A DNA stretch of 64,000 bases from Hyphomicrobiales bacterium (GTDB lineage Bacteria > Pseudomonadota > Alphaproteobacteria > Rhizobiales > Rhizobiaceae). The notes under the pieces were generated by a model that saw only the letters and a program-made list of their open reading frames with translations, did not search any database and had not been told where the DNA came from. The stretch is taken from contig UCAG01000014.1 in NCBI GenBank assembly GCA_900470285.1, positions 1-64,000 on the forward strand, in the 5' to 3' direction. The position numbers and the translations under genes were made by a program. Shown piece after piece: positions 834-32,805 of this stretch. Every line of letters starts with the position of its first letter. Position 1 is the first letter of the stretch.

Positions 834-2237
834 ATGCGATTTGCAAGTGTATTCCCGTCAGTTTTACAATTGATCGGCCGGACACCGCTTGTCGAGCTCA
901 ATGGATTTGACACAGGGCCGTGCCGTTTATTCGCAAAACTGGAGAGCCAGAATCCTTCCGGCTCCATTAAAGACAGGGTCGCTCTGAGCATTATTTCTGC
1001 GGCGGAACAATCAGGTCAGTTGCGCGCAGGCGGTACAATTGTCGAGGCCACAGCCGGTAATACGGGGCTTGGCCTTGCACAGGTTGCAGCATTGCGCGGC
1101 TACCGGTTGATTCTGGCTATACCGGATAAAATGTCCAAAGAGAAAATCCGGCATTTACGGGCTTTAGGAGCCGATGTCCGGCTGACACGTTCTGATGTGG
1201 ATAAGGATCATCCTGAGCATTATCAAAATTTGGCACGGCGAATTGCAGAAGAAATTCCGCATGCGTTTTTTGCTGATCAGTTTTCTAATCCTGCTAATCC
1301 GCGGACACATGAGATCGCAACAGGGCCGGAAATCTGGGAACAGACAGATCATAAGGTTGATGTGGTTGTTGTCGGGGTGGGTTCCGGCGGTACGCTGACG
1401 GGACTGGGGCGTTATTTTCGATCAGTTTCGCCGCTGACGCAAATTATACTTGCCGATCCTGAAGGTTCTGTTCTTGCACCATTCATCGCGACCGGTCAGC
1501 TGGCGCAAGCCGGTCAATGGTCCGTGGAGGGGATAGGGCAGGATTACATCCCTGCGAATGCTGATCTCTCTCTTGTCAGCCGTGCTTATACAATGTCCGA
1601 CCGGCAATCTGTTCAGGCTGCCCGCGATTTGCTTTTGCGTGAGGGCATTCTGGCCGGAGCATCGTCCGGTACTTTGCTGGCAGCGGCTCTGCAATATTGC
1701 CGTGAGCAGACAGAGCCCAAAAATGTGGTGACGCTGATTTGTGACAGCGGCTCCAAATACTTGTCAAAAATGTTTGATGATAACTGGCTGCGTGAGCGGC
1801 ATCTGAGTGAGCGTGTAGTGCAGGGCAATCTGGAGGATCTGATCTCGCGGCGTCATCAGGACGGCGCGGTGGAGGTAACCACACCGGATGAGAATTTGCT
1901 TGAGGCCTACGGGCGGATGCGGCGCAATGCTGTCTCACAATTACCTGTGCTGGATGGCGGCAGACTTGTCGGAATTATTGACGAAAGCGATATTCTGAAA
2001 GCAGTGGAGGGGCCGCCGGAAGGGCGCTGGTCACGTTTTGCTGCGCAGGTTTCATCGGCGATGACCCCGCAACCGCGTGTCTTGCAGGTGGATGCGCCAT
2101 TAAGTGATTTGCAGACCTTCTTTGACCGCGATGAAGTGGCGCTGATTGTTAATGGCGTGGATTTCATCGGGCTTATCACCCGTATCGATCTGATTAATCA
2201 TCTGCGCTATGCCGGTAAAAACACACGTGATACATAA
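834..2237 (+). CDS. cbs: Cystathionine beta-synthase (PLP enzyme with C-terminal CBS domain pair)
   Basis: The 467-residue protein has the fold-type II PLP core of cystathionine beta-synthase and cysteine synthase. The Schiff-base lysine is K46 in SGSIKDR, the substrate loop is TAGNTG at about 73-78, and the phosphate loop GSGGTLTG is also present. The core ends with the CDSGSKYLSKMF segment at about residue 300. From about 335 to 460 a Bateman pair of CBS repeats follows, which suggests ligand-sensed regulation and distinguishes it from plain cysteine synthases. It should condense serine (or an activated serine) with homocysteine in the cytoplasm. The ATG sits 10 bases after AAAGGAG. It stands alone and is followed directly by a terminator. 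Confidence 0.88.
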   Translation: MRFASVFPSVLQLIGRTPLVELNGFDTGPCRLFAKLESQNPSGSIKDRVALSIISAAEQSGQLRAGGTIVEATAGNTGLGLAQVAALRGYRLILAIPDKMSKEKIRHLRALGADVRLTRSDVDKDHPEHYQNLARRIAEEIPHAFFADQFSNPANPRTHEIATGPEIWEQTDHKVDVVVVGVGSGGTLTGLGRYFRSVSPLTQIILADPEGSVLAPFIATGQLAQAGQWSVEGIGQDYIPANADLSLVSRAYTMSDRQSVQAARDLLLREGILAGASSGTLLAAALQYCREQTEPKNVVTLICDSGSKYLSKMFDDNWLRERHLSERVVQGNLEDLISRRHQDGAVEVTTPDENLLEAYGRMRRNAVSQLPVLDGGRLVGIIDESDILKAVEGPPEGRWSRFAAQVSSAMTPQPRVLQVDAPLSDLQTFFDRDEVALIVNGVDFIGLITRIDLINHLRYAGKNTRDT

Positions 2238-2639: not shown

Positions 2640-2930
2640 ATGATCTGAATGAGAAATACTGCAATACTGAATATAAAAAGATTTGAATTGCACGAAAATG
2701 ATGGTATTAGCTGTTTTGCTTTGCAGATGAATTTTAAAATTTGATATTTTTCATATGTAATTTTATAGATATTGATTTTAACTCTATGATTTTTATAAAT
2801 TTTACTTTTATACTGTATTTTATGAAGTATCTGTAATTTCAATAATTGCTGAATGTTTTGATAAATATGAGATTTCTGTATGATTTGTAGTCTCAATAAT
2901 CCCATGAAGTCGAACAAAATCACTGCAAAC
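2640..2930. other. AT-rich intergenic stretch without a gene
   Basis: About 290 bases have base composition far more AT-rich than the neighbours, with runs such as TTTTATAAATTTTACTTTT. The only long frame across it gives an Ile/Lys/Tyr-rich sequence with no ribosome binding site. It may be a foreign remnant or an AT-rich protein-binding region; I see no further gene in it. Confidence 0.6.
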
Positions 2931-3067
2931 TGAGTCGGGCTAACCGGTGCTGGTTTTCATCACGTTATTGCAGCCTGTTGTCGCTGCTACGGTTCTTTCG
3001 TGCATATTGCGCATAGTGGTTTCACTCTGCCTTGCAATGCTGCATGACTGTTATGCATTATTGTTTA

Positions 3068-3096
3068 TTGTCGGTTTTTTCTCCTGCAGTTATAAG
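3068..3096 (+). promoter_or_regulatory. Promoter of the three-hairpin sRNA
   Basis: A sigma-70-like pair is visible: TTGTCG at 3068-3073, a 17-bp spacer and TATAAG at 3091-3096. It predicts a start at about 3102, exactly at the foot of the first hairpin of the RNA. Confidence 0.65.
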
Positions 3097-3101
3097 TCTG
3101 T

Positions 3102-3216
3102 CCATCGGGTTCGTTCTCCTCCTCCCAATTGGACCCGATGACGGAATGCGGTACTCCTCCTCCCAACCGCATCCATAATCAGGCCGCGCATCTCCTCCCC
3201 CGCGCGGCCTTTTTCT
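3102..3216 (+). ncRNA. Three-hairpin sRNA with anti-Shine-Dalgarno loops, alpha-r14/NfeR1 (cuckoo) type
   Basis: Three consecutive hairpins are visible. Hairpin 1 pairs 3103-3112 with 3131-3140 and exposes CTCCTCCTCCC. Hairpin 2 pairs 3146-3152 with 3166-3172 and exposes ACTCCTCCTCCCA. Hairpin 3 pairs GGCCGCGC (3182-3189) with GCGCGGCC (3202-3209), exposes CTCCTCCCCC and is followed by T5, making a Rho-independent terminator. Loops with CCUCCUCCC repeated in each hairpin are the hallmark of the alphaproteobacterial alpha-r14/NfeR1 and CcsR (cuckoo) families, which base-pair with ribosome binding sites of target mRNAs, commonly ABC-transporter messages. Family naming rests on motif and architecture seen here, not on an alignment. 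Confidence 0.8.
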
Positions 3217-3279
3217 TTTTCCAAATCGATTAAATTCATTTCCGTATTCAGCGTTCGGGCTATATCCTCGGCGCGAAGT

Positions 3280-3349
3280 CACTATTCGTTATTTTGTTGC
3301 GATCAAAACATTACAAATGTTTGTTTCGTAACAAAATAGTGTAATAGTG
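3280..3349. repeat. Long imperfect inverted repeat
   Basis: Two arms of about 33 bases (3280-3312 and 3316-3349) are inverted copies with a few mismatches, separated by only three bases. Both ends read CACTATT. No T-tract follows, so it is not a simple terminator. It may be a remnant of a miniature mobile element or a large operator upstream of the HAD gene. Confidence 0.6.
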
Positions 3350-3453
3350 CGCTATCTGCTCCTGCAAAGCACGATGTTTGTAGAGGGCAGGAGCTCTATG
3401 AGCTTTGTCTATTTGTTTGCCCCGTTTATCCCTTGGCTAAAAAGGACCTGAAA

Positions 3454-4125
3454 GTGAAGCAGCGCGATAATTCTGTATTTCTGAATTCTTATTCCGGTTT
3501 CCTGTTTGATATGGACGGAACATTGGTCAATTCTATTCCTGTTGTAGAACGGATCTGGCTGGAATGGGCTGCGGAGCACGGGGTAGACGGACCGGAGCTG
3601 CTCAAAAAAGTACATGGCATCCGCGTTGTTGATGTTATCAAAATGCTGAATATGCCTCATCTTGATCCGGCAGCAATTGCAGCTACTTTTTTGGCTGAAG
3701 AAATGCAGGATTTTGCCGGTATCCGCGCCATTGCCGGTGCAAAAGATTTCATCGCCAGCCTGCCTGCTGACCGCTGGACGATTGTTACGTCCGCACCGCG
3801 TGAACTGGCGCAAGCGCGTCTGGCAGCCGCCGGTCTGCCGGTACCGGAAACCATTGTTGTGGCGGAAGATGTGAGCGCGGGCAAGCCTGATCCGTCGGGT
3901 TATCGTCTGGGTGCGCAGCGTCTTGGTTTTGATGCAGCCGATTGTCTGGTTTTTGAAGATGCACCGGCAGGTATTGCTGCGGGTAAAGCTGCGGATTCTG
4001 ACGTTGTGGTTATCAGTGAAACCCACAGCCATGTGGTGACAGGCGGCAATGTTGAATTCCGCGACTTTATCAATTTGGGCATCATGCAGGACGGCGACGG
4101 ACGTTTGCGCCTCAGCGTTGGCTAA
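3454..4125 (+). CDS. HAD-family sugar phosphatase / phosphoglucomutase-like hydrolase
   Basis: This is a HAD subfamily I hydrolase of about 223 residues. Motif I is DMDGT (nucleophile D19, acid D21), followed by a helical cap. Motif II is the T/S segment IVTSAPRE, motif III the lysine of AGKPDP, and motif IV the FEDAPAGIAAG segment. This pattern fits GPP/YfbT-like sugar or glycerol phosphatases and beta-phosphoglucomutases; the substrate cannot be told. The GTG at 3454 lies 8 bases after AAAGGA and is preferred over an in-frame TTG at 3433, which has no ribosome binding site. The gene converges on the XdhC-like gene. Confidence 0.8.
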   Translation: MKQRDNSVFLNSYSGFLFDMDGTLVNSIPVVERIWLEWAAEHGVDGPELLKKVHGIRVVDVIKMLNMPHLDPAAIAATFLAEEMQDFAGIRAIAGAKDFIASLPADRWTIVTSAPRELAQARLAAAGLPVPETIVVAEDVSAGKPDPSGYRLGAQRLGFDAADCLVFEDAPAGIAAGKAADSDVVVISETHSHVVTGGNVEFRDFINLGIMQDGDGRLRLSVG

Positions 4126-13859: not shown

Positions 13860-14100
13860 ATGAAGGCTGCGGGAAATTCGGCTGGTGAGAGGCACCGGCA
13901 TCCGCCTTGCAACTGTTTTATACAGCTGGGTCAATCATTACAGAGCTAACACGGTACCGGGCCCCTCTGGCGAGAGTTTACGGCGCTCTCGTGATGTCGG
14001 TACTGCCGCAAATATAGCCGGCGGACATGTGATCATGAAAAATTCTTTCATGTTTTCTGCGGAAGGTTATCAGGCCGTTTCCGCTTTTAACTTTTGTTCT
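13860..14100 (+). promoter_or_regulatory. Structured leader RNA of terC with a terminator-like hairpin
   Basis: The roughly 300-base untranslated stretch before terC folds into several stems: CTGGTG/CACCGG (13882-13898), GTACCG/CGGTAC (13954-13959 with 13998-14003) enclosing CGAGAG/CTCTCG (13971-13991), and GCGGAA/TTCCGC (14059-14084) followed by TTTTAACTTTTG. The last looks like an intrinsic terminator just ahead of the gene, as in riboswitches. A terC RNA motif upstream of terC genes in Alphaproteobacteria has been described from comparative genomics and may be this element; I cannot align to its consensus here. The GGGGAGUA core of the yybP-ykoY manganese riboswitch is not visible. Confidence 0.55.
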
Positions 14101-14156: not shown

Positions 14157-15245
14157 ATGAGCACGCCTGTCTCTCAGAAAACTGTTCTCAGCTATTTTAC
14201 CTGGGCATTTATTGTCACCGTAGTCGGTCTGGCGCTTGGTGCATGGCTCGGATGGCAGTCTACTGGCACGATCGGTGGTATGGCCTCGATCTTTTTTATC
14301 TGTACGGTTCTGGCCGTGCTGGAAATCTCGCTGTCCTTTGATAATGCGGTGGTGAATGCCAATAAGCTGAAAGACATGACGCCGGAATGGCAGCATCGCT
14401 TTCTGACCTGGGGTATCATCATTGCCGTTTTCGGTATGCGTATTGTTTTCCCGCTGCTGGTTGTGGTGATTGCTGCCGGTATCGGTCCGATTGAAGCGAT
14501 CGTTCTGGCTGCTGCGAAACCTGAAGAATATGCGCGTATCATGACTGATGCGCATCTGCCGATTGCCGCTTTCGGCGGTACCTTCCTGTTGATGGTGGGA
14601 CTGACCTATTTCTTCAACTCCGACAAGGATGTGCATTGGTTCGGCCCGCTGGAACGTCCGATGGCGCGCCTGGCTGAAATCAAAGGGGTTGAAGTTGCAA
14701 TCGTTCTGATCCTGCTTCTGACCTTCTCGTCAATTCTGGGTGAAGTTGATGGTACAACTTTCCTCTATTCCGGCATTTACGGTCTTCTGACCTTCCTTGC
14801 TGTGGAAGTGGTTGGCGGTATTCTTGATGCTTCGCAGAAAACGCTGAATGCTGCGGCACAGGGCGGTTTTGGTGCCTTCCTTTATCTTGAAGTGCTGGAT
14901 GCCAGCTTCTCCTTCGATGGTGTGATCGGCGCTTTCGCTCTGTCGCAGAACCTGTTCGTGATTGCGATCGGTCTGGGTATCGGTGCGATGTATGTGCGTT
15001 CCATGACCATTATGCTGGTGGAAAAAGGCACATTGAGCGAATACCGCTATCTGGAGCATGGTGCATTCTATGCGATCCTGATCCTGTCGGTGGTGATGTA
15101 TTTCCAGACACTCGTGCATATTCCGGAAGTGATTACCGGTCTTGGCGGTGCGGTACTGATCGGTATCGCGTTCTGGGCGTCGGTTCGTCATAACCGTCGT
15201 GAAGAACATGCCGAAGCAAAAGCTGAAGCTGTAGCAGCCGAATAA
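14157..15245 (+). CDS. terC: TerC/Alx family integral membrane protein
   Basis: The 362-residue protein has about nine hydrophobic helices and the family signature EISLSFDNAVVNA, echoed by DASFSFDGVIGAF in the second half. The acidic residues in these helices are thought to handle Mn2+ or other divalent cations; the tellurite-resistance name is historical. It lies in the inner membrane. The start is well fixed by AAGGAGATCGTGAA before the ATG. The long structured leader suggests riboregulation, perhaps by metal or pH as for alx. A terminator follows, so it is a single-gene transcript. The C-terminus is charged (Glu/Ala/Lys-rich). Confidence 0.9.
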   Translation: MSTPVSQKTVLSYFTWAFIVTVVGLALGAWLGWQSTGTIGGMASIFFICTVLAVLEISLSFDNAVVNANKLKDMTPEWQHRFLTWGIIIAVFGMRIVFPLLVVVIAAGIGPIEAIVLAAAKPEEYARIMTDAHLPIAAFGGTFLLMVGLTYFFNSDKDVHWFGPLERPMARLAEIKGVEVAIVLILLLTFSSILGEVDGTTFLYSGIYGLLTFLAVEVVGGILDASQKTLNAAAQGGFGAFLYLEVLDASFSFDGVIGAFALSQNLFVIAIGLGIGAMYVRSMTIMLVEKGTLSEYRYLEHGAFYAILILSVVMYFQTLVHIPEVITGLGGAVLIGIAFWASVRHNRREEHAEAKAEAVAAE

Positions 15246-15398: not shown

Positions 15399-16820
15399 AT
15401 GACAAATGGCGGACAAGATATCAGCGACGGACAGGTCATACCTGTTGCGGTTCCGGCAGAGGCGGTGAAGCCACCTATGCCACAGAGCTTGTGGCGTTCT
15501 TATATGCTGATTTTTCTGCCTATGCTGCTGTCCAATATTTTGCAGGCGGCCTCCGGCACGCTGAACGGTATTTTTGTCGGCCGGATGATGGGCGTCGATG
15601 CGTTGGCAGCAATGTCCGCCTTTGCTCCGGTGTTCTTTTTATTTCTTGGTCTGATTATCGGTCTGGGTGCCGGTGCAACTGTGCTGATCGGTCAGGCATG
15701 GGGCGCGCGGGATATGGTCAAGCTACATGGCATTGCGGGCAGTGCAGTGGCAATGGTGATGACTGTGTCTGTTACCGTTGCAATAATGGGCGGATTATTT
15801 GCCACGCAGCTGATGTCATTTCTTGGCACGCCGCAGGCCGTGCTGAACGAATCTGCTCATTATGCCCGTATCATGATGATGGGCATGCCGGTGATTTTCC
15901 TGCTCTGGCTGATGAGCAATATGAGCCGCGGTGTCGGCGATGCTGTTAGTCCGCTCTGGGCGCTTGTGGTTGCAACATCTGTTGCCATGGTGCTGACGCC
16001 ACTCTTCATTGAAGGTTGGCTGGGTTTTCCGCAGCTTGGGGTGATGAGTGCGGCCGTTTCCACGGTGATTGCTTCCGCTGTGGCACTGGTCTGGCTGATC
16101 TGGCACTGGAACCGTCGCAATCATCCGATGGCATTCACACGTAGTTTTTTGGCTCTGATCCGCTTTAACGGCACCTATTGTAAAACTATTTTGCGTGTGG
16201 GATTGCCGACAGCTTTGCAGATGCTGACCATCGCGTTCGCCGAAATTGTGCTGCTGGGGCTGGTTAATGGCCATGGTACACAGGCGACAGCTGCCTATGG
16301 CGCAATTGTGCAGACATTGGGCTGGGTGCAGTTTCCGGCTATTTCTATCGGCATTACCGCCTCAATTCTGGCCGCACAGGCGGTCGGGGCAGGGCGTAAT
16401 GAGCAGGTGCATAAGATTGTAATTGCTGGTCTGCAGCTGAACTTGCTGGTCACCGGTTCCTGCGTGACATTGGCTTATTTATTGTCCGGTTACATTACCA
16501 GTGCGTTTCTGACCGAGCAGGCTGTGGCCGATCTGGCAGCGCACTTGCTGCATATCGTGCTCTGGACGATTGTATTATTTGGCATGAGCAGTGTGTTTAT
16601 GAGCTCTATGCGGGCAAGCGGGGCGATTTATGCACCGACAGTTCTGACCATGAGCGCTATTCTGTTCGTGGAAATTCCGGCGGCCTATATGTTCAATCAC
16701 TGGATTGGCATTGACGGTATCTGGTGGGCTTATTCGCTGACTTTTGCCACGATGCTGTGTCTGCAATCGGGCTATTATTATTTCATCTTCAGTAAGCGGA
16801 AAATTGTGAAGCTGATTTAG
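15399..16820 (+). CDS. MATE family efflux transporter
   Basis: From the ATG at 15399 the product has 473 residues with about twelve hydrophobic helices in two similar halves, as expected for MATE (NorM/DinF-like) proteins. The first helix carries LPMLLSNILQAASGTLNGIFVGRMMG, and the matching segment in the second half is GLPTALQMLTIAFAEIVLLG. These Na+- or H+-driven antiporters export cationic drugs and metabolites across the inner membrane; the substrate is unknown. An in-frame TTG at 15306 would add 31 polar residues that the family lacks. GGAAAATAGCA precedes the chosen ATG. A family II repeat and a terminator follow. Confidence 0.85.
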   Translation: MTNGGQDISDGQVIPVAVPAEAVKPPMPQSLWRSYMLIFLPMLLSNILQAASGTLNGIFVGRMMGVDALAAMSAFAPVFFLFLGLIIGLGAGATVLIGQAWGARDMVKLHGIAGSAVAMVMTVSVTVAIMGGLFATQLMSFLGTPQAVLNESAHYARIMMMGMPVIFLLWLMSNMSRGVGDAVSPLWALVVATSVAMVLTPLFIEGWLGFPQLGVMSAAVSTVIASAVALVWLIWHWNRRNHPMAFTRSFLALIRFNGTYCKTILRVGLPTALQMLTIAFAEIVLLGLVNGHGTQATAAYGAIVQTLGWVQFPAISIGITASILAAQAVGAGRNEQVHKIVIAGLQLNLLVTGSCVTLAYLLSGYITSAFLTEQAVADLAAHLLHIVLWTIVLFGMSSVFMSSMRASGAIYAPTVLTMSAILFVEIPAAYMFNHWIGIDGIWWAYSLTFATMLCLQSGYYYFIFSKRKIVKLI

Positions 16821-16923
16821 AGCATGTCTCCCAAAAGTGGGAACCGGTTTTGGGATAAAGACATGCATGAAAACAAAGAAATAGAGTATTTCCGATGATT
16901 CAATCAAAACAGGAAATACTCTG
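16818..16923 (+). repeat. Palindromic intergenic repeat, family II, copy 1
   Basis: It starts AGAGCATGTCTCCCAAAAG, with inner complementarity to TTTTGGGATAAAGACATGC, and ends with the hairpin AGAGTATTTCC/GGAAATACTCT. A diverged copy is at 17813-17923. Elements of this kind (CCCGAAAAGTGGGAACCGG-like) are common in Brucella and Ochrobactrum genomes. Confidence 0.65.
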
Positions 16924-16924
16924 G

Positions 16925-16949
16925 AAAAGCCGGCAGTGCCGGCTTTTTT
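16925..16949. terminator. Bidirectional terminator
   Basis: The stem AAAAGCCGGC/GCCGGCTTTT with an AGT loop and T6 lies between the convergent MATE and DppA-like genes. Confidence 0.8.
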
Positions 16950-16953
16950 GTTG

Positions 16954-17775
16954 TTATTTCACATTGGCAGCAAGACCGGAAAGAACGCCCATCCAGCCGA
17001 CAGCTTCCGCTACATTTGCACAATCAAAGCTGATGGTGGTGGCGTCCGTGCGCTTGGCACAAGGGATAATTGCCATCTGATCGGCCAGCAGCGGCGAATT
17101 CATGATGAATTCTGCATGGATGCGGCTGGTAAACGGTTTCCAGACTTTCAGTTCGTTTTTACGCTCAACTGCTTTTTTCGCCAGCTCACGGATCATGGCG
17201 CGGGCATTCTGCACGGAAATTTGTCGCGCTGCACGGGTGCCGAGGGCTGTTTTGACGGTGGCAAATTCAGCTTCAGGGAAGAACGGGCGGTTTTCCTGTT
17301 CAGTCTGATCATCACCGCTGATCAAGGCTACCGGCACACCGAGTTCACCGGCATAGGCGCCATAAAAGCCGGGCTCACCGACAATCTGCCCATTGAGTTT
17401 GATAGTGCGGAAGGCAAAGCCGTTGGTGGTATGGGCGAGCACACCATATTGCGCGGCACTGGCATGGTGGCCGGTGAAGAACAGCAGGTCAAAGCTTTCA
17501 TCCAGACCGGCAGCCATGTTGAATTTTTTCGGACGACCAAGGATCAGCTCTGCCGCGGGGTGCAGCATTTCCGGAATAATATTGACCATCGGGCCATGGG
17601 AGTCATTGACCAGAATATAGTCTGCTCCGCCTGCCAATGCACCTTCAATGGCGGCATTGACCTCTTCTGTCATCAAGCGGCGCGCGCGCTCATATTCAGG
17701 ATTGCCGGGTTGCCCCTGCTGGGATGTCACAACGCCTGCAACACCTTCAATATCCGCACAAATATAGACTCTCAT
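16954..17775 (-). CDS. dppA: M55 family D-aminopeptidase (DppA-like)
   Basis: The 273-residue protein has the M55 zinc-binding set in order: D8 and E10 in ADIEGVAG, H60 in NDSHG, H103/H104 in GHHA, and the glutamate of AGELGVP near 133. DppA of Bacillus is a self-compartmentalising decamer that cleaves D-Ala-D-Ala and D-Ala-Gly-Gly, probably in peptidoglycan peptide salvage; relatives also act on ordinary short peptides. There is no signal peptide, so it acts in the cytoplasm. No peptide transporter gene adjoins it here. The ATG at 17775 follows GGAGGGGAAAT, fixing the start. Confidence 0.88.
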   Translation of the reverse strand: MRVYICADIEGVAGVVTSQQGQPGNPEYERARRLMTEEVNAAIEGALAGGADYILVNDSHGPMVNIIPEMLHPAAELILGRPKKFNMAAGLDESFDLLFFTGHHASAAQYGVLAHTTNGFAFRTIKLNGQIVGEPGFYGAYAGELGVPVALISGDDQTEQENRPFFPEAEFATVKTALGTRAARQISVQNARAMIRELAKKAVERKNELKVWKPFTSRIHAEFIMNSPLLADQMAIIPCAKRTDATTISFDCANVAEAVGWMGVLSGLAANVK

Positions 17776-27062: not shown

Positions 27063-28172
27063 TTAAAAGGAACGCTGGATAAGTAATGTTCCGCCGACAG
27101 AATGTTGCCCGTACAGTGCTGTGGCCTTTTCATCATTCCACTTTGTATAAGTGAGCTCCGGCTGGATAATCAGACCGGGCACCATTTGATATTCAAGATT
27201 GATTGCGGCCGCCAGCGTCTTGCTTGCATCATAGCCAAGCTGGGTGCTCAGACTGGTTTTTGGGTTGAATTTATAAGCAACTCCGCCCCATGCTGCCCAG
27301 TCTCCGCCCCATTGTCCGTAGAAACTGGTTTTCTGGCGTTGCCCGTCAAAGTAAATATCCCTGTTGTTTTTATAGGCAGTCTGCATCCAGAAAGACAGGG
27401 CATCGCTGGCTTTCAGGTCGATCTTGGTTTTACCGGCCCATGATTCATTAACGCTGTCATAGGCCGCAACGGCAGCGATGGCGCCCCATCCCTGTTCATA
27501 TTTCACACCGGCAACAACATGCGGCACATAATCTTTAATTGTGCCGCCATAAATGAGGCTGGCATCGTTGTCTTTTTCAGTTTGATAGCCGCTGTCTTTA
27601 TCATTACCCTGTTCAAGGGCCAGAATGGTCGAGAAACCGTTGCTGTTTTTATAGGTGTAGCTGATTTGTGCTGTACGGGTGCCGCCGTAAGCAATCACAT
27701 CATCATTGATGATATTGCCGAGATAATTACTGAAGCTGATAAAGGCCGAGAAATCCATCCCGATCTGTAAACCGCCCAACTGGATAACTGCTTTGCGTAG
27801 AGTTCCGGAGCTTTTACTGTCTTTGCCATCACCCCACTGGAAACGTAACGAGGCTTCGGTTTTCATGGTGCCAAGTTCTGTTTCGGAGGCTGTTTTGGGA
27901 TTAAATGTGAAAAGCATTGAATTTGTAGCGCTGTGATAACTGGTATTATCATAAGGGTCGTGACCTGCTTGTATTGTGGTACGCACATATCCGCCAAATG
28001 ACATGCAGGTTTGTGTTCCGGGCAGGGTGAAATATGTCTTCCCGTAAGTATCACAGATTTTTACATAATTAATTTCATCCGGTTCCGGAGTAATTAAATT
28101 ATCTTCAGCGTAAGAACTATTATTGATTGATACAAAAATGATAAATGTTAAATAATTTTTTTTAAATTTCAT
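27063..28172 (-). CDS. Outer-membrane porin of the rhizobial/Brucella type (Porin_2)
   Basis: The 369-residue product has a signal peptide (MKFKKNYLTFIIFVSINNSSYA) and the mature start opens with a conserved INYVKICDTYGKTYFTLPGT. The CDTYG...CMSFGGYVR cysteine pair and alternating beta-strands are typical of Omp2/RopA porins, and the chain ends in phenylalanine (IQRSF), the outer-membrane assembly signal. It forms a general diffusion pore. The start at 28172 follows GGGGACGGCA. The gene is more AT-rich than its neighbours at its 5' end, and the upstream 150 bases are AT-rich. Confidence 0.85.
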   Translation of the reverse strand: MKFKKNYLTFIIFVSINNSSYAEDNLITPEPDEINYVKICDTYGKTYFTLPGTQTCMSFGGYVRTTIQAGHDPYDNTSYHSATNSMLFTFNPKTASETELGTMKTEASLRFQWGDGKDSKSSGTLRKAVIQLGGLQIGMDFSAFISFSNYLGNIINDDVIAYGGTRTAQISYTYKNSNGFSTILALEQGNDKDSGYQTEKDNDASLIYGGTIKDYVPHVVAGVKYEQGWGAIAAVAAYDSVNESWAGKTKIDLKASDALSFWMQTAYKNNRDIYFDGQRQKTSFYGQWGGDWAAWGGVAYKFNPKTSLSTQLGYDASKTLAAAINLEYQMVPGLIIQPELTYTKWNDEKATALYGQHSVGGTLLIQRSF

Positions 28173-28310
28173 TGCCGTCCCCAATATTGAATTTAAAATA
28201 TTGATTATGACGGGTAATTTTCTTGGTGAATATTACAGTTCTGTGCGATGAAAATTATGGGTACTATCTCTTTTTTGTGAACGCAGTGTTTATGAGAACA
28301 GATAATTGAT

Positions 28311-31473: not shown

Positions 31474-32805
31474 ATGACTGATCTAACCAATAGTCCCAAG
31501 CTTGACAGTTTCTGGATGCCGTTTACTGCGAACCGCCAGTTCAAATCTGCACCGCGTATGCTGGCTACAGCTGAAGGCATGTATTACACGGATGTGGACG
31601 GTAATTCTGTGCTGGACGGCACCGCCGGTCTGTGGTGTGTGAATGCCGGTCATGGCCGTAAACAGATTGCCAGTGCCGTTGAAAAACAGCTTTCGACTAT
31701 GGATTTCGCGCCGACATTCCAGATGGGGCATAATATTGCGTTTGATTTTGCCACCCGTCTTGGTGAAATTGCACCACGCGGTGATGGCAAAATTCTCGAC
31801 CGCGTTTTCTTCACCGGTTCCGGTTCAGAATCCGTTGATACTGCACTGAAAATTGCGATTGCCTTTCAGCGCGCCATTGGTCAGGGCACCCGTACCCGTG
31901 TGATCGGCCGTGAACGCGGCTATCATGGTGTGGGTTTTGGCGGTATTTCCGTTGGCGGTCTGGTTAATAACCGCCGCGTGTTTCCGTTGCTACCGGGTGC
32001 TGATCATCTGCGCCATACGCATGATCTTGAGAAAAACGCTTTCAGTAAAGGTCAGCCGGAACACGGTGCCGAACTGGCGGATGATCTGGAACGTATGGTC
32101 GCGCTACATGGTGCGGAAACCATTGCTGCAGTGATTGTGGAACCTCTGGCCGGTTCAACCGGTGTGCTGGTGCCGCCCAAAGGTTATCTGGAACGCCTTG
32201 CAGCCATTGCCAAAAAACACGGTATTCTGCTGATTTTTGATGAAGTGATCACCGGTTTCGGTCGTCTTGGCTCGCCATTCGCATCAGATTATTTTGGTGT
32301 CACGCCTGACCTGATCACCACAGCAAAAGGTCTGACTAATGGTGCCATTCCGATGGGGGCGGTTTTTGCCAGCCGTCATATTTATGATGGTCTGATGCAT
32401 GGGCCGGAAGGCGCTATTGAGCTGTTCCACGGTTATACTTATTCCGGTCATCCGGCAGCTTGTGCGGCAGGGATTGCAACGCTGGATATTTATGCTGAAG
32501 AGGGGCTGCTGACCCGCGCTGCCGAACTGGCAGATGACTGGCAGGAAGCGATCCACTCGCTGAAATCTACGAAGAATGTCATCGATATCCGCACACTCGG
32601 ACTGGTGGCCGGTATTGAATTATCCTCCCGTGACGGTGCAGTCGGTGCGCGCGCCTATGATGTGTTCACCGATTGCTTCAAGAAAGGTCTGCTGATCCGC
32701 GTGACCGGTGATGTGATTGCTTTGTCTCCGCCGCTGATCGTCAGCAAAGAAGAGATTGGCAAGATTGTTTCGATCCTTGGTGATGCAATCAACCGCGCAT
32801 CATAA
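31474..32805 (+). CDS. Omega-amino acid:pyruvate aminotransferase (class III)
   Basis: The 443-residue PLP enzyme starts LDSFWMPFTANRQFKSAPRM, the signature of beta-alanine:pyruvate aminotransferases. The cofactor region contains FTGSGSESVDTALK, VIGRERGYHGVGFGG, IFDEVITGFGRLG and the lysine of TTAKGLTNGAIPMG. It transfers an omega-amino group (beta-alanine, GABA-like or polyamine-derived) to pyruvate in the cytoplasm. The divergent XRE-cupin regulator fits amine catabolism. GAGGAGAGAG lies before the ATG. Confidence 0.88.
   Translation: MTDLTNSPKLDSFWMPFTANRQFKSAPRMLATAEGMYYTDVDGNSVLDGTAGLWCVNAGHGRKQIASAVEKQLSTMDFAPTFQMGHNIAFDFATRLGEIAPRGDGKILDRVFFTGSGSESVDTALKIAIAFQRAIGQGTRTRVIGRERGYHGVGFGGISVGGLVNNRRVFPLLPGADHLRHTHDLEKNAFSKGQPEHGAELADDLERMVALHGAETIAAVIVEPLAGSTGVLVPPKGYLERLAAIAKKHGILLIFDEVITGFGRLGSPFASDYFGVTPDLITTAKGLTNGAIPMGAVFASRHIYDGLMHGPEGAIELFHGYTYSGHPAACAAGIATLDIYAEEGLLTRAAELADDWQEAIHSLKSTKNVIDIRTLGLVAGIELSSRDGAVGARAYDVFTDCFKKGLLIRVTGDVIALSPPLIVSKEEIGKIVSILGDAINRAS

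Follow-up and report, generated by a model that had tools for sequence, protein, structure and literature searches.

A predicted stand-alone ar14 small RNA gene behind a candidate LsrB/VtlR site in a genome assigned to Pseudochrobactrum

A short intergenic stretch of a Hyphomicrobiales genome holds promoter-like hexamers followed by three hairpins that expose anti-Shine-Dalgarno (aSD) loops, which raises the question of what kind of RNA is encoded here, whether it has a promoter of its own and which regulator would control it. We addressed this question in the window, by which we mean the whole 64,000-nt stretch of DNA that was analysed, and in related genomes.

A three-hairpin RNA of the ar14 family

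The elements of the RNA gene are the following:

3068-3073, plus strand: -35 hexamer TTGTCG, invariant in 8 of 8 aligned rows
3091-3096, plus strand: -10 hexamer, TATAAG in five of the 8 rows and TATATG in three
3100-3215, plus strand: ar14 sRNA gene (RF02344), from covariance model, fold and conservation in 7 genomes
about 3102-3216, plus strand: predicted transcript of the ar14 gene, about 115 nt
3103-3140, plus strand: hairpin 1, stem 3103-3113/3130-3140, loop 3114-3129 with CUCCUCCUCCC
3143-3174, plus strand: hairpin 2, stem 3143-3152/3166-3174, loop 3153-3165 with CUCCUCCUCCC
3181-3210, plus strand: hairpin 3, the intrinsic terminator stem, stem 3181-3189/3202-3210, 12-nt loop 3190-3201 with CUCCUCC
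3210-3214, plus strand: T5 terminator tail, of which the first T pairs with A3181

A preliminary description of this DNA had proposed a TTGTCG-N17-TATAAG promoter, three hairpins exposing CTCCTCC-type loops and a terminal T5. All of these hold: the two hexamers lie exactly 17 nt apart and are conserved in 7 genomes, the T5 is present, and when 3102-3216 was folded alone it formed three hairpins with CUCCUCC in every loop (minimum free energy -46.7 kcal/mol). This fold is far more stable than that of shuffled sequences (z -6.92; 0 of 200 shuffles as stable). In the 64 kb, both strands together hold 7 CTCCTCC matches compared to 3.91 expected (sd 1.92; a count of 7 was reached in 10 of 100 shuffles), and five of these 7 lie in the three loops. 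A simple consensus scan of 2950-3350 gave no promoters and no terminators; it accepts -10 hexamers with T as the sixth letter and loops of 3-8, and the site at 3068-3214 fits neither. What speaks for the promoter is therefore its conservation.

An Rfam scan of the whole window placed RF02344 (ar14) at 3100-3215 on the plus strand with 76.9 bits, above the gathering score of 58.8 (E 4.1e-12), and the match covers model positions 1-123 of 123. The assignment to alpha-r14/NfeR1 suggested earlier was thereby confirmed by the covariance model. As is typical of ar14, each of the three hairpins carries an unpaired CCUCCUCCC-type aSD motif, and the third, with its 9-pair stem and T5, is a Rho-independent terminator, which is also the consensus in the model alignment. 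Loops 1 and 2 contain CUCCUCCUCCC, and loop 3 the shorter CUCCUCCC, the same as in the ar14 family consensus. The third aSD copy inside the terminator loop had been singled out as notable, but it is the family norm according to the RF02344 alignment and hence unremarkable. The ar15 family (RF02345; AbcR) is absent from the window's 3 gathering-level Rfam matches, and the ar15 matches of the same genome are found only on contigs C14 and C6. Elsewhere in the window, the Brucella sRNA CI27 (RF02600) is matched at 16810-16959 (67.5 bits, above the gathering score) and terC RNA (RF03067) at 13949-14009 (62 bits), upstream of a gene at 14157-15245 with matches to PRK14013 models and weak ones to models of YkoY-type membrane proteins.

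The own genome holds four ar14 matches. Besides the window copy there is a match of 75.8 bits on C3, and the remaining two, both on C7, do not reach the cut-off. Among 41 genomes (the own genome and 40 relatives), 32 have an ar14 match at E <=0.001 and 25 one above the cut-off. At the former threshold, the family is present in 24 of 25 genomes of the same taxonomic family and in 8 of 16 from other families of the order, while none of 14 control genomes has a match. The window copy is an ordinary member of the catalogued alpha-r14 family. Among the titles listed by a literature search on small RNAs in Pseudochrobactrum, none concerns an RNA of this kind.

Conservation of the locus within the genus

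The same type of locus (L164) occurs in Pseudochrobactrum saccharolyticum CCUG 33852. The four ar14 match coordinates of that genome are identical to those of G005, a genome of the same genus as the window's, and via this relative we assign the genome of the window to the genus Pseudochrobactrum. The locus was aligned in 8 rows from 7 genomes of this one genus (L164 and L022 belong to one genome), with these syntenic neighbours, which flank the sRNA locus in all 7:

834-2237, plus strand: cysteine synthase / cystathionine beta-synthase-like gene
3433-4125, plus strand: HAD-IA phosphatase-like gene

The seven genomes have a common footprint from 3030 to about 3219. Before it, at 2887-3029, 11 of 143 columns are invariant in the 8 rows. 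The fraction rises to 28 of 29 at 3030-3058, 32 of 40 at 3059-3098 and 110 of 117 across the RNA at 3099-3215, and falls to 23 of 85 downstream, at 3216-3300. The three loops are identical in 7/7 genomes, and all 29 stem pairs are kept across the 4 distinct sequences that the 7 genomes provide; one pair, in hairpin 2, is changed on both sides (U-A to C-G), and three pairs are changed on one side. Because the rows are nearly identical, the covariation lies within the range of shuffles (135 of 500 reach it, with 4 distinct rows) and therefore backs the fold weakly. The DNA separating the sRNA from the cysteine synthase-like gene includes an AT-rich stretch (2435-2923), in which a minus-strand ORF has low G+C at all three codon positions (0.40, 0.30 and 0.34).

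The alignment also bears on the idea that the locus is a short protein gene, either a 74-aa minus-strand ORF at 3058-3282 or a 64-aa plus-strand ORF at 2947-3141. Both are open in the window, and the minus-strand frame is open across the RNA itself in 7/7 genomes. However, read in the same register, the minus-strand ORF meets an in-frame stop at its proposed start or close to it in 5 of the 7 genomes, and the plus-strand ORF is interrupted by in-frame stops in 4 of the 7 (in one of them only near its end). The start regions of both ORFs are not kept, and the residues that are kept mirror the conserved RNA. We consider a protein gene extremely improbable.

The locus could also be a silent or decaying duplicate, with its structure intact and the copy unexpressed or devoid of targets. 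There are, after all, four ar14 matches in this genome, and in S. meliloti only one of six copies was reliably detected by northern blot under the conditions tested, as reported in PMC7143759, so that the window copy may be silent as well. On the other hand, the identity of the loops in all 7 genomes of the genus, and the retention of the promoter and of the dyad described below while the flanks diverge, point to selection. A duplicate of this kind is thus an unlikely explanation.

A conserved upstream block with a candidate LsrB/VtlR site

NfeR1 of S. meliloti, the founding alpha-r14 RNA, is described as activated by LsrB at TGCA-N6-GCAT from about -72 (PMC10746234), and the box GCAT-N3-TG-N3-T is given for VtlR of Brucella abortus and A. 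tumefaciens (PMC7486931). The upstream block of the window locus contains elements of this kind, and the candidate activator site GCATGACTGTTATGCA had been missed in the preliminary description:

3030-3058, plus strand: conserved upstream block, candidate LsrB/VtlR region
3033-3045, plus strand: TGCA-N5-GCAT, about -70 to -58 if the start is near 3102-3103
3042-3057, plus strand: dyad GCAT-N7-ATGC (GCATGACTGTTATGCA), which fits the published VtlR box

The TGCA-N5-GCAT runs into GCATGACTGTTATGCA. Like an NfeR1-type gene, the locus has a predicted sigma-70-type promoter of its own together with a conserved upstream motif (3030-3098, 8 rows, 7 genomes). NtrC is reported to repress NfeR1 from a site at -116 to -101, which according to the authors is not evident outside plant symbionts (PMC10746234). 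We did not find an NtrC-type site (TGC-N11-GCA) at the matching place upstream of the window locus; given the authors' observation, such a site is no family-defining trait.

The short VtlR box is not rare, with 20 matches in the window compared to 20.2 expected; its place and its recurrence carry the weight. We searched for GCAT-N7-ATGC with <=1 mismatch 40-110 nt before the first loop of ar14 arrays that were chosen by covariance model from other genera; loci of the own genus were left out, repeats were counted once and arrays with <3 loops or <130 nt upstream were dropped. The dyad was found in 17 of 28 stand-alone arrays, or 15 of 26 without L027 and L048, since the dyad was framed after the window and some tested promoters (these two at least) had been seen. 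The same rule gave 1 of 13 in DUF1127-linked arrays, with 0.065 expected per region. The stand-alone class is impure, as L030 has DUF1127-like residues upstream, and arrays of one genome are not independent. Exact matches occur in 4 of the 28 stand-alone arrays (0.0085 expected per region), two of them being L027 and L048. In 14 of the 17 arrays with the dyad it starts 72-78 nt before the first loop; in the window this distance is 74 nt (3042 to 3116), the same as in the window-type locus of P. saccharolyticum (L240). A coarser test with GCAWTGC gave 8 of 29 stand-alone compared to 1 of 12 DUF1127-linked arrays (0.029 expected per region). In passing, 6 to 8 aSD loops were counted per cluster in L030 (G034), L014 and L016, and loop number varies between genera.

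Other searches were less specific. A position-weight test of the promoter box, together with its spacing peaks, was set aside as partly circular because the search pattern contained CAATGC from the window; a scan of genome contigs with a CAATGC-containing pattern gave at least 119 stretches. In the own genome, CAATGCNGCNATGCA with <=2 mismatches was matched 172 times on the forward and 156 times on the reverse strand (control 26 and 13) and was rejected as too loose by itself. The motif TGCATNRCTGNNATGCA with <=1 mismatch gave 13 rows compared to 0 and 1 in the control; the window's match among them is by construction, that of the AbcR gene on C14 is not. None of the 13 rows corresponds to a box before the DUF1127 genes on C3 and C7 or at the AbcR gene on C6. 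Apart from the window's, the genome has one exact TGCATNRCTGNNATGCA match, which reads TGCATAGCAGCTATGCA on the plus strand. It lies at G000:C4:40304-40320 (L227), between a gene that by eye is ahpC-like and an exonuclease-like gene, and would make a link of LsrB to peroxide defence possible.

A further set of eight loci with aSD arrays comes from genera that we take to be Rhodobacterales, and these loci are a biased sample because they were chosen with a CAATGC-containing pattern. Two of them, L120 and L135 (Seohaeicola, Celeribacter), have an exact GCATTGCTGCAATGC before the array, and L112 and L156 have a similar sequence. This contrasts with the statement that LsrB is unique to Rhizobiales (PMC11975290).

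LsrB, AbcR and the other ar14 loci

On C14, a LysR-type gene adjoins the AbcR (ar15) gene. Its product matches PDB 9HH1, reported to be A. tumefaciens LsrB (PMC11975290), over residues 1-301 with an E value of 1.3e-143, a match which identifies the gene as lsrB, so that the genome encodes LsrB beside an AbcR gene. The AbcR gene on C14 has the box with one mismatch (C14:235583-235599), whereas the one on C6 has no such dyad even at 2 mismatches.

The C3 and C7 ar14 arrays of the own genome lie 3' of DUF1127 genes (G000:C3:104001-104122, L002; G000:C7:93356-93560, L003, L004 and L034). The C7 array has diverged and scores below the Rfam cut-off; the counting rule gives it 3 or 4 loops, and more are seen by eye. 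In the genus, the first loop follows the DUF1127 stop by 27-28 nt in the C3 type (7 loci) and by 87-141 nt in the C7 type (5 loci). None of these 12 loci has the dyad 40-110 nt before the hairpins. Instead, a one-mismatch dyad stands 97 nt before the start of the DUF1127 gene in 7/7 loci of the C3 type, and 105 nt before it in 5/5 fetched loci of the C7 type.

These arrays are an argument for reading the window locus in the same way, as a CcsR/CIN1-type array whose hairpins would be cut from a longer mRNA, out of its 3' UTR, and not made from their own promoter: the genus's other ar14 arrays do follow DUF1127 ORFs, all 12 with a one-mismatch dyad before the ORF. Against this, the 900 nt upstream of the window-type copy yielded no DUF1127 ORF in any of the 7 genomes, and the conserved block at 3030-3098 holds both promoter and dyad while the sequence before it is not conserved. 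There is little to recommend 3' UTR processing at this locus, and a stand-alone gene is the preferred reading.

We also looked at Brucella oryzae, in which all five ar14 matches sit behind the dyad by either layout. Three are stand-alone and have the dyad 70-72 nt before the first loop, exact in two of them and with a mismatch in the third. The other two are DUF1127-linked; here the dyad precedes the ORF by 94 nt (exact) or by 118 nt (one mismatch). Agrobacterium pusense is mixed, as 1 of its 3 ar14 copies is without a dyad by the same rule; the loop rule excluded the C7-type array of P. saccharolyticum from the survey with these two species. Within Pseudochrobactrum and Brucella oryzae, then, every examined ar14 locus lies behind an LsrB/VtlR-like dyad with <=1 mismatch, placed before the hairpins if these stand alone and before the DUF1127 gene if they lie 3' of it, and one of the two AbcR genes shares the dyad. 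This suggests, tentatively and with the odds somewhat against it, that LsrB/VtlR commands one aSD RNA regulon, made up of stand-alone ar14 RNAs and of DUF1127 3' hairpins that would be released from 3' UTRs.

Reported targets of activation by VtlR in Brucella are three DUF1127 genes and AbcR2; a fourth DUF1127 gene has no VtlR motif, and its expression rises when VtlR is missing (PMC12595884). If the regulon exists as outlined, the DUF1127 small-protein regulon of VtlR would in part be an RNA regulon. If binding holds, one redox- and nutrient-linked regulator would govern several aSD RNAs at once, and small-protein readings of the LsrB/VtlR regulon would have to consider 3' UTRs. Deletion of the three DUF1127 genes and abcR2 reportedly left the virulence of B. 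abortus unaffected (PMC12595884), so no phenotype is tied to RNAs in those genes. The parts of the literature examined contain no statement that VtlR's DUF1127 targets carry ar14 hairpins, and ar14 goes unmentioned in the examined parts of PMC12218461 and PMC9751625.

Pairing with translation start regions in the window

Pairing of the RNA was predicted, with opening energies, against the longest-ORF starts of 60 window ORFs, of which 59 were scored; the starts were not curated, and the antisense of the same start regions served as control. At -6 kcal/mol or better, 9 of 59 starts paired compared to 4 of 59 in the control, at -8 or better 3 compared to 2 and at -10 2 compared to 1. The expectation that many genes of the window could be pairing partners is not convincingly supported by this result, which is only slightly above antisense. 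The best-pairing start in the window is at 31474. Of the gene types named beforehand, the dpp-like binding-protein gene (SBP_bac_5, 35409) pairs with -6.7 kcal/mol, and the porin gene (Porin_2, 27063-28184) is outside the best 25 of the 59 scored starts. For ntrB of the own genome, recognised by its location before ntrC, the start pairs weakly (-2.2 kcal/mol). Because the excess over the control is small and the starts are uncurated, we drew no target list. For many targets in the window there is thus no support other than that aSD loops fit Shine-Dalgarno sites in general.

Proposed function

With a probability of about 0.86 in our estimate, the locus is a stand-alone, NfeR1-type ar14 gene for a trans-acting sRNA that is probably activated by LsrB/VtlR and blocks translation via Shine-Dalgarno sites. 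For NfeR1, activation by LsrB is reported, as is silencing of ntrB and two ABC transporter mRNAs by three redundant aSD loops (PMC10746234). By analogy with the published work in S. meliloti, transcription from the sigma-70-type promoter would begin near 3102 and stop at the third hairpin, giving an RNA of about 115 nt, and would probably be activated by LsrB (named VtlR in Brucella) from a site at about -70 to -46. The three CU-rich loops would act redundantly as anti-Shine-Dalgarno sequences, any one of which could base-pair with the ribosome-binding sites of target mRNAs and so block their translation; these mRNAs would probably serve transport and metabolism. That the promoter and activator site are functional is suggested by their sequence conservation. 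A likely role, again by analogy, is the stress-linked control of transport.

Comparison with known systems

Compared by its published description, NfeR1 (SmelC397, Smr14C2; S. meliloti, RF02344) is the closest known system. Both are stand-alone genes with three aSD-loop hairpins, the last of which is the terminator, and both have a sigma-70-type promoter and, some 60-70 nt before the start, an LsrB-type site; for the window locus, promoter and site are predictions. They differ in that the window has TGCA-N5-GCAT in place of TGCA-N6-GCAT, lacks an NtrC-type site at the matching place and shows weak ntrB pairing. Further traits of NfeR1 are its Hfq independence and a transcript of 123 nt.

The preliminary description had also likened the locus to the CcsR or cuckoo RNAs. 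This applies to the loop motif in tandem hairpins, as in CcsR1-4 of the CIN1 locus of Rhodobacter sphaeroides (DUF1127 gene ccaF1), which citing papers count as cuckoo-like RNAs, but not to the layout with DUF1127 first. CcsR RNAs are described as arising by RNase E processing of a transcript shared with a DUF1127 gene, and the CIN1 locus, a short DUF1127 gene plus CcsR-like RNAs, as a known alphaproteobacterial layout (PMC10253847). Unlike CcsR, the window copy has no DUF1127 neighbour and has a promoter-like block of its own; it is the C3 and C7 arrays of the same genome that resemble the CIN1 layout.

AbcR / alpha-r15 (RF02345) is likewise an aSD sRNA with LsrB/VtlR control in relatives, but belongs to a different family, whereas the window locus matches ar14. 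Finally, VrsA, the VtlR-activated sRNA of Agrobacterium tumefaciens, is reported to be an sRNA behind the VtlR box GCAT-N3-TG-N3-T (PMC7486931), an arrangement like the one predicted for the ar14 gene of the window.
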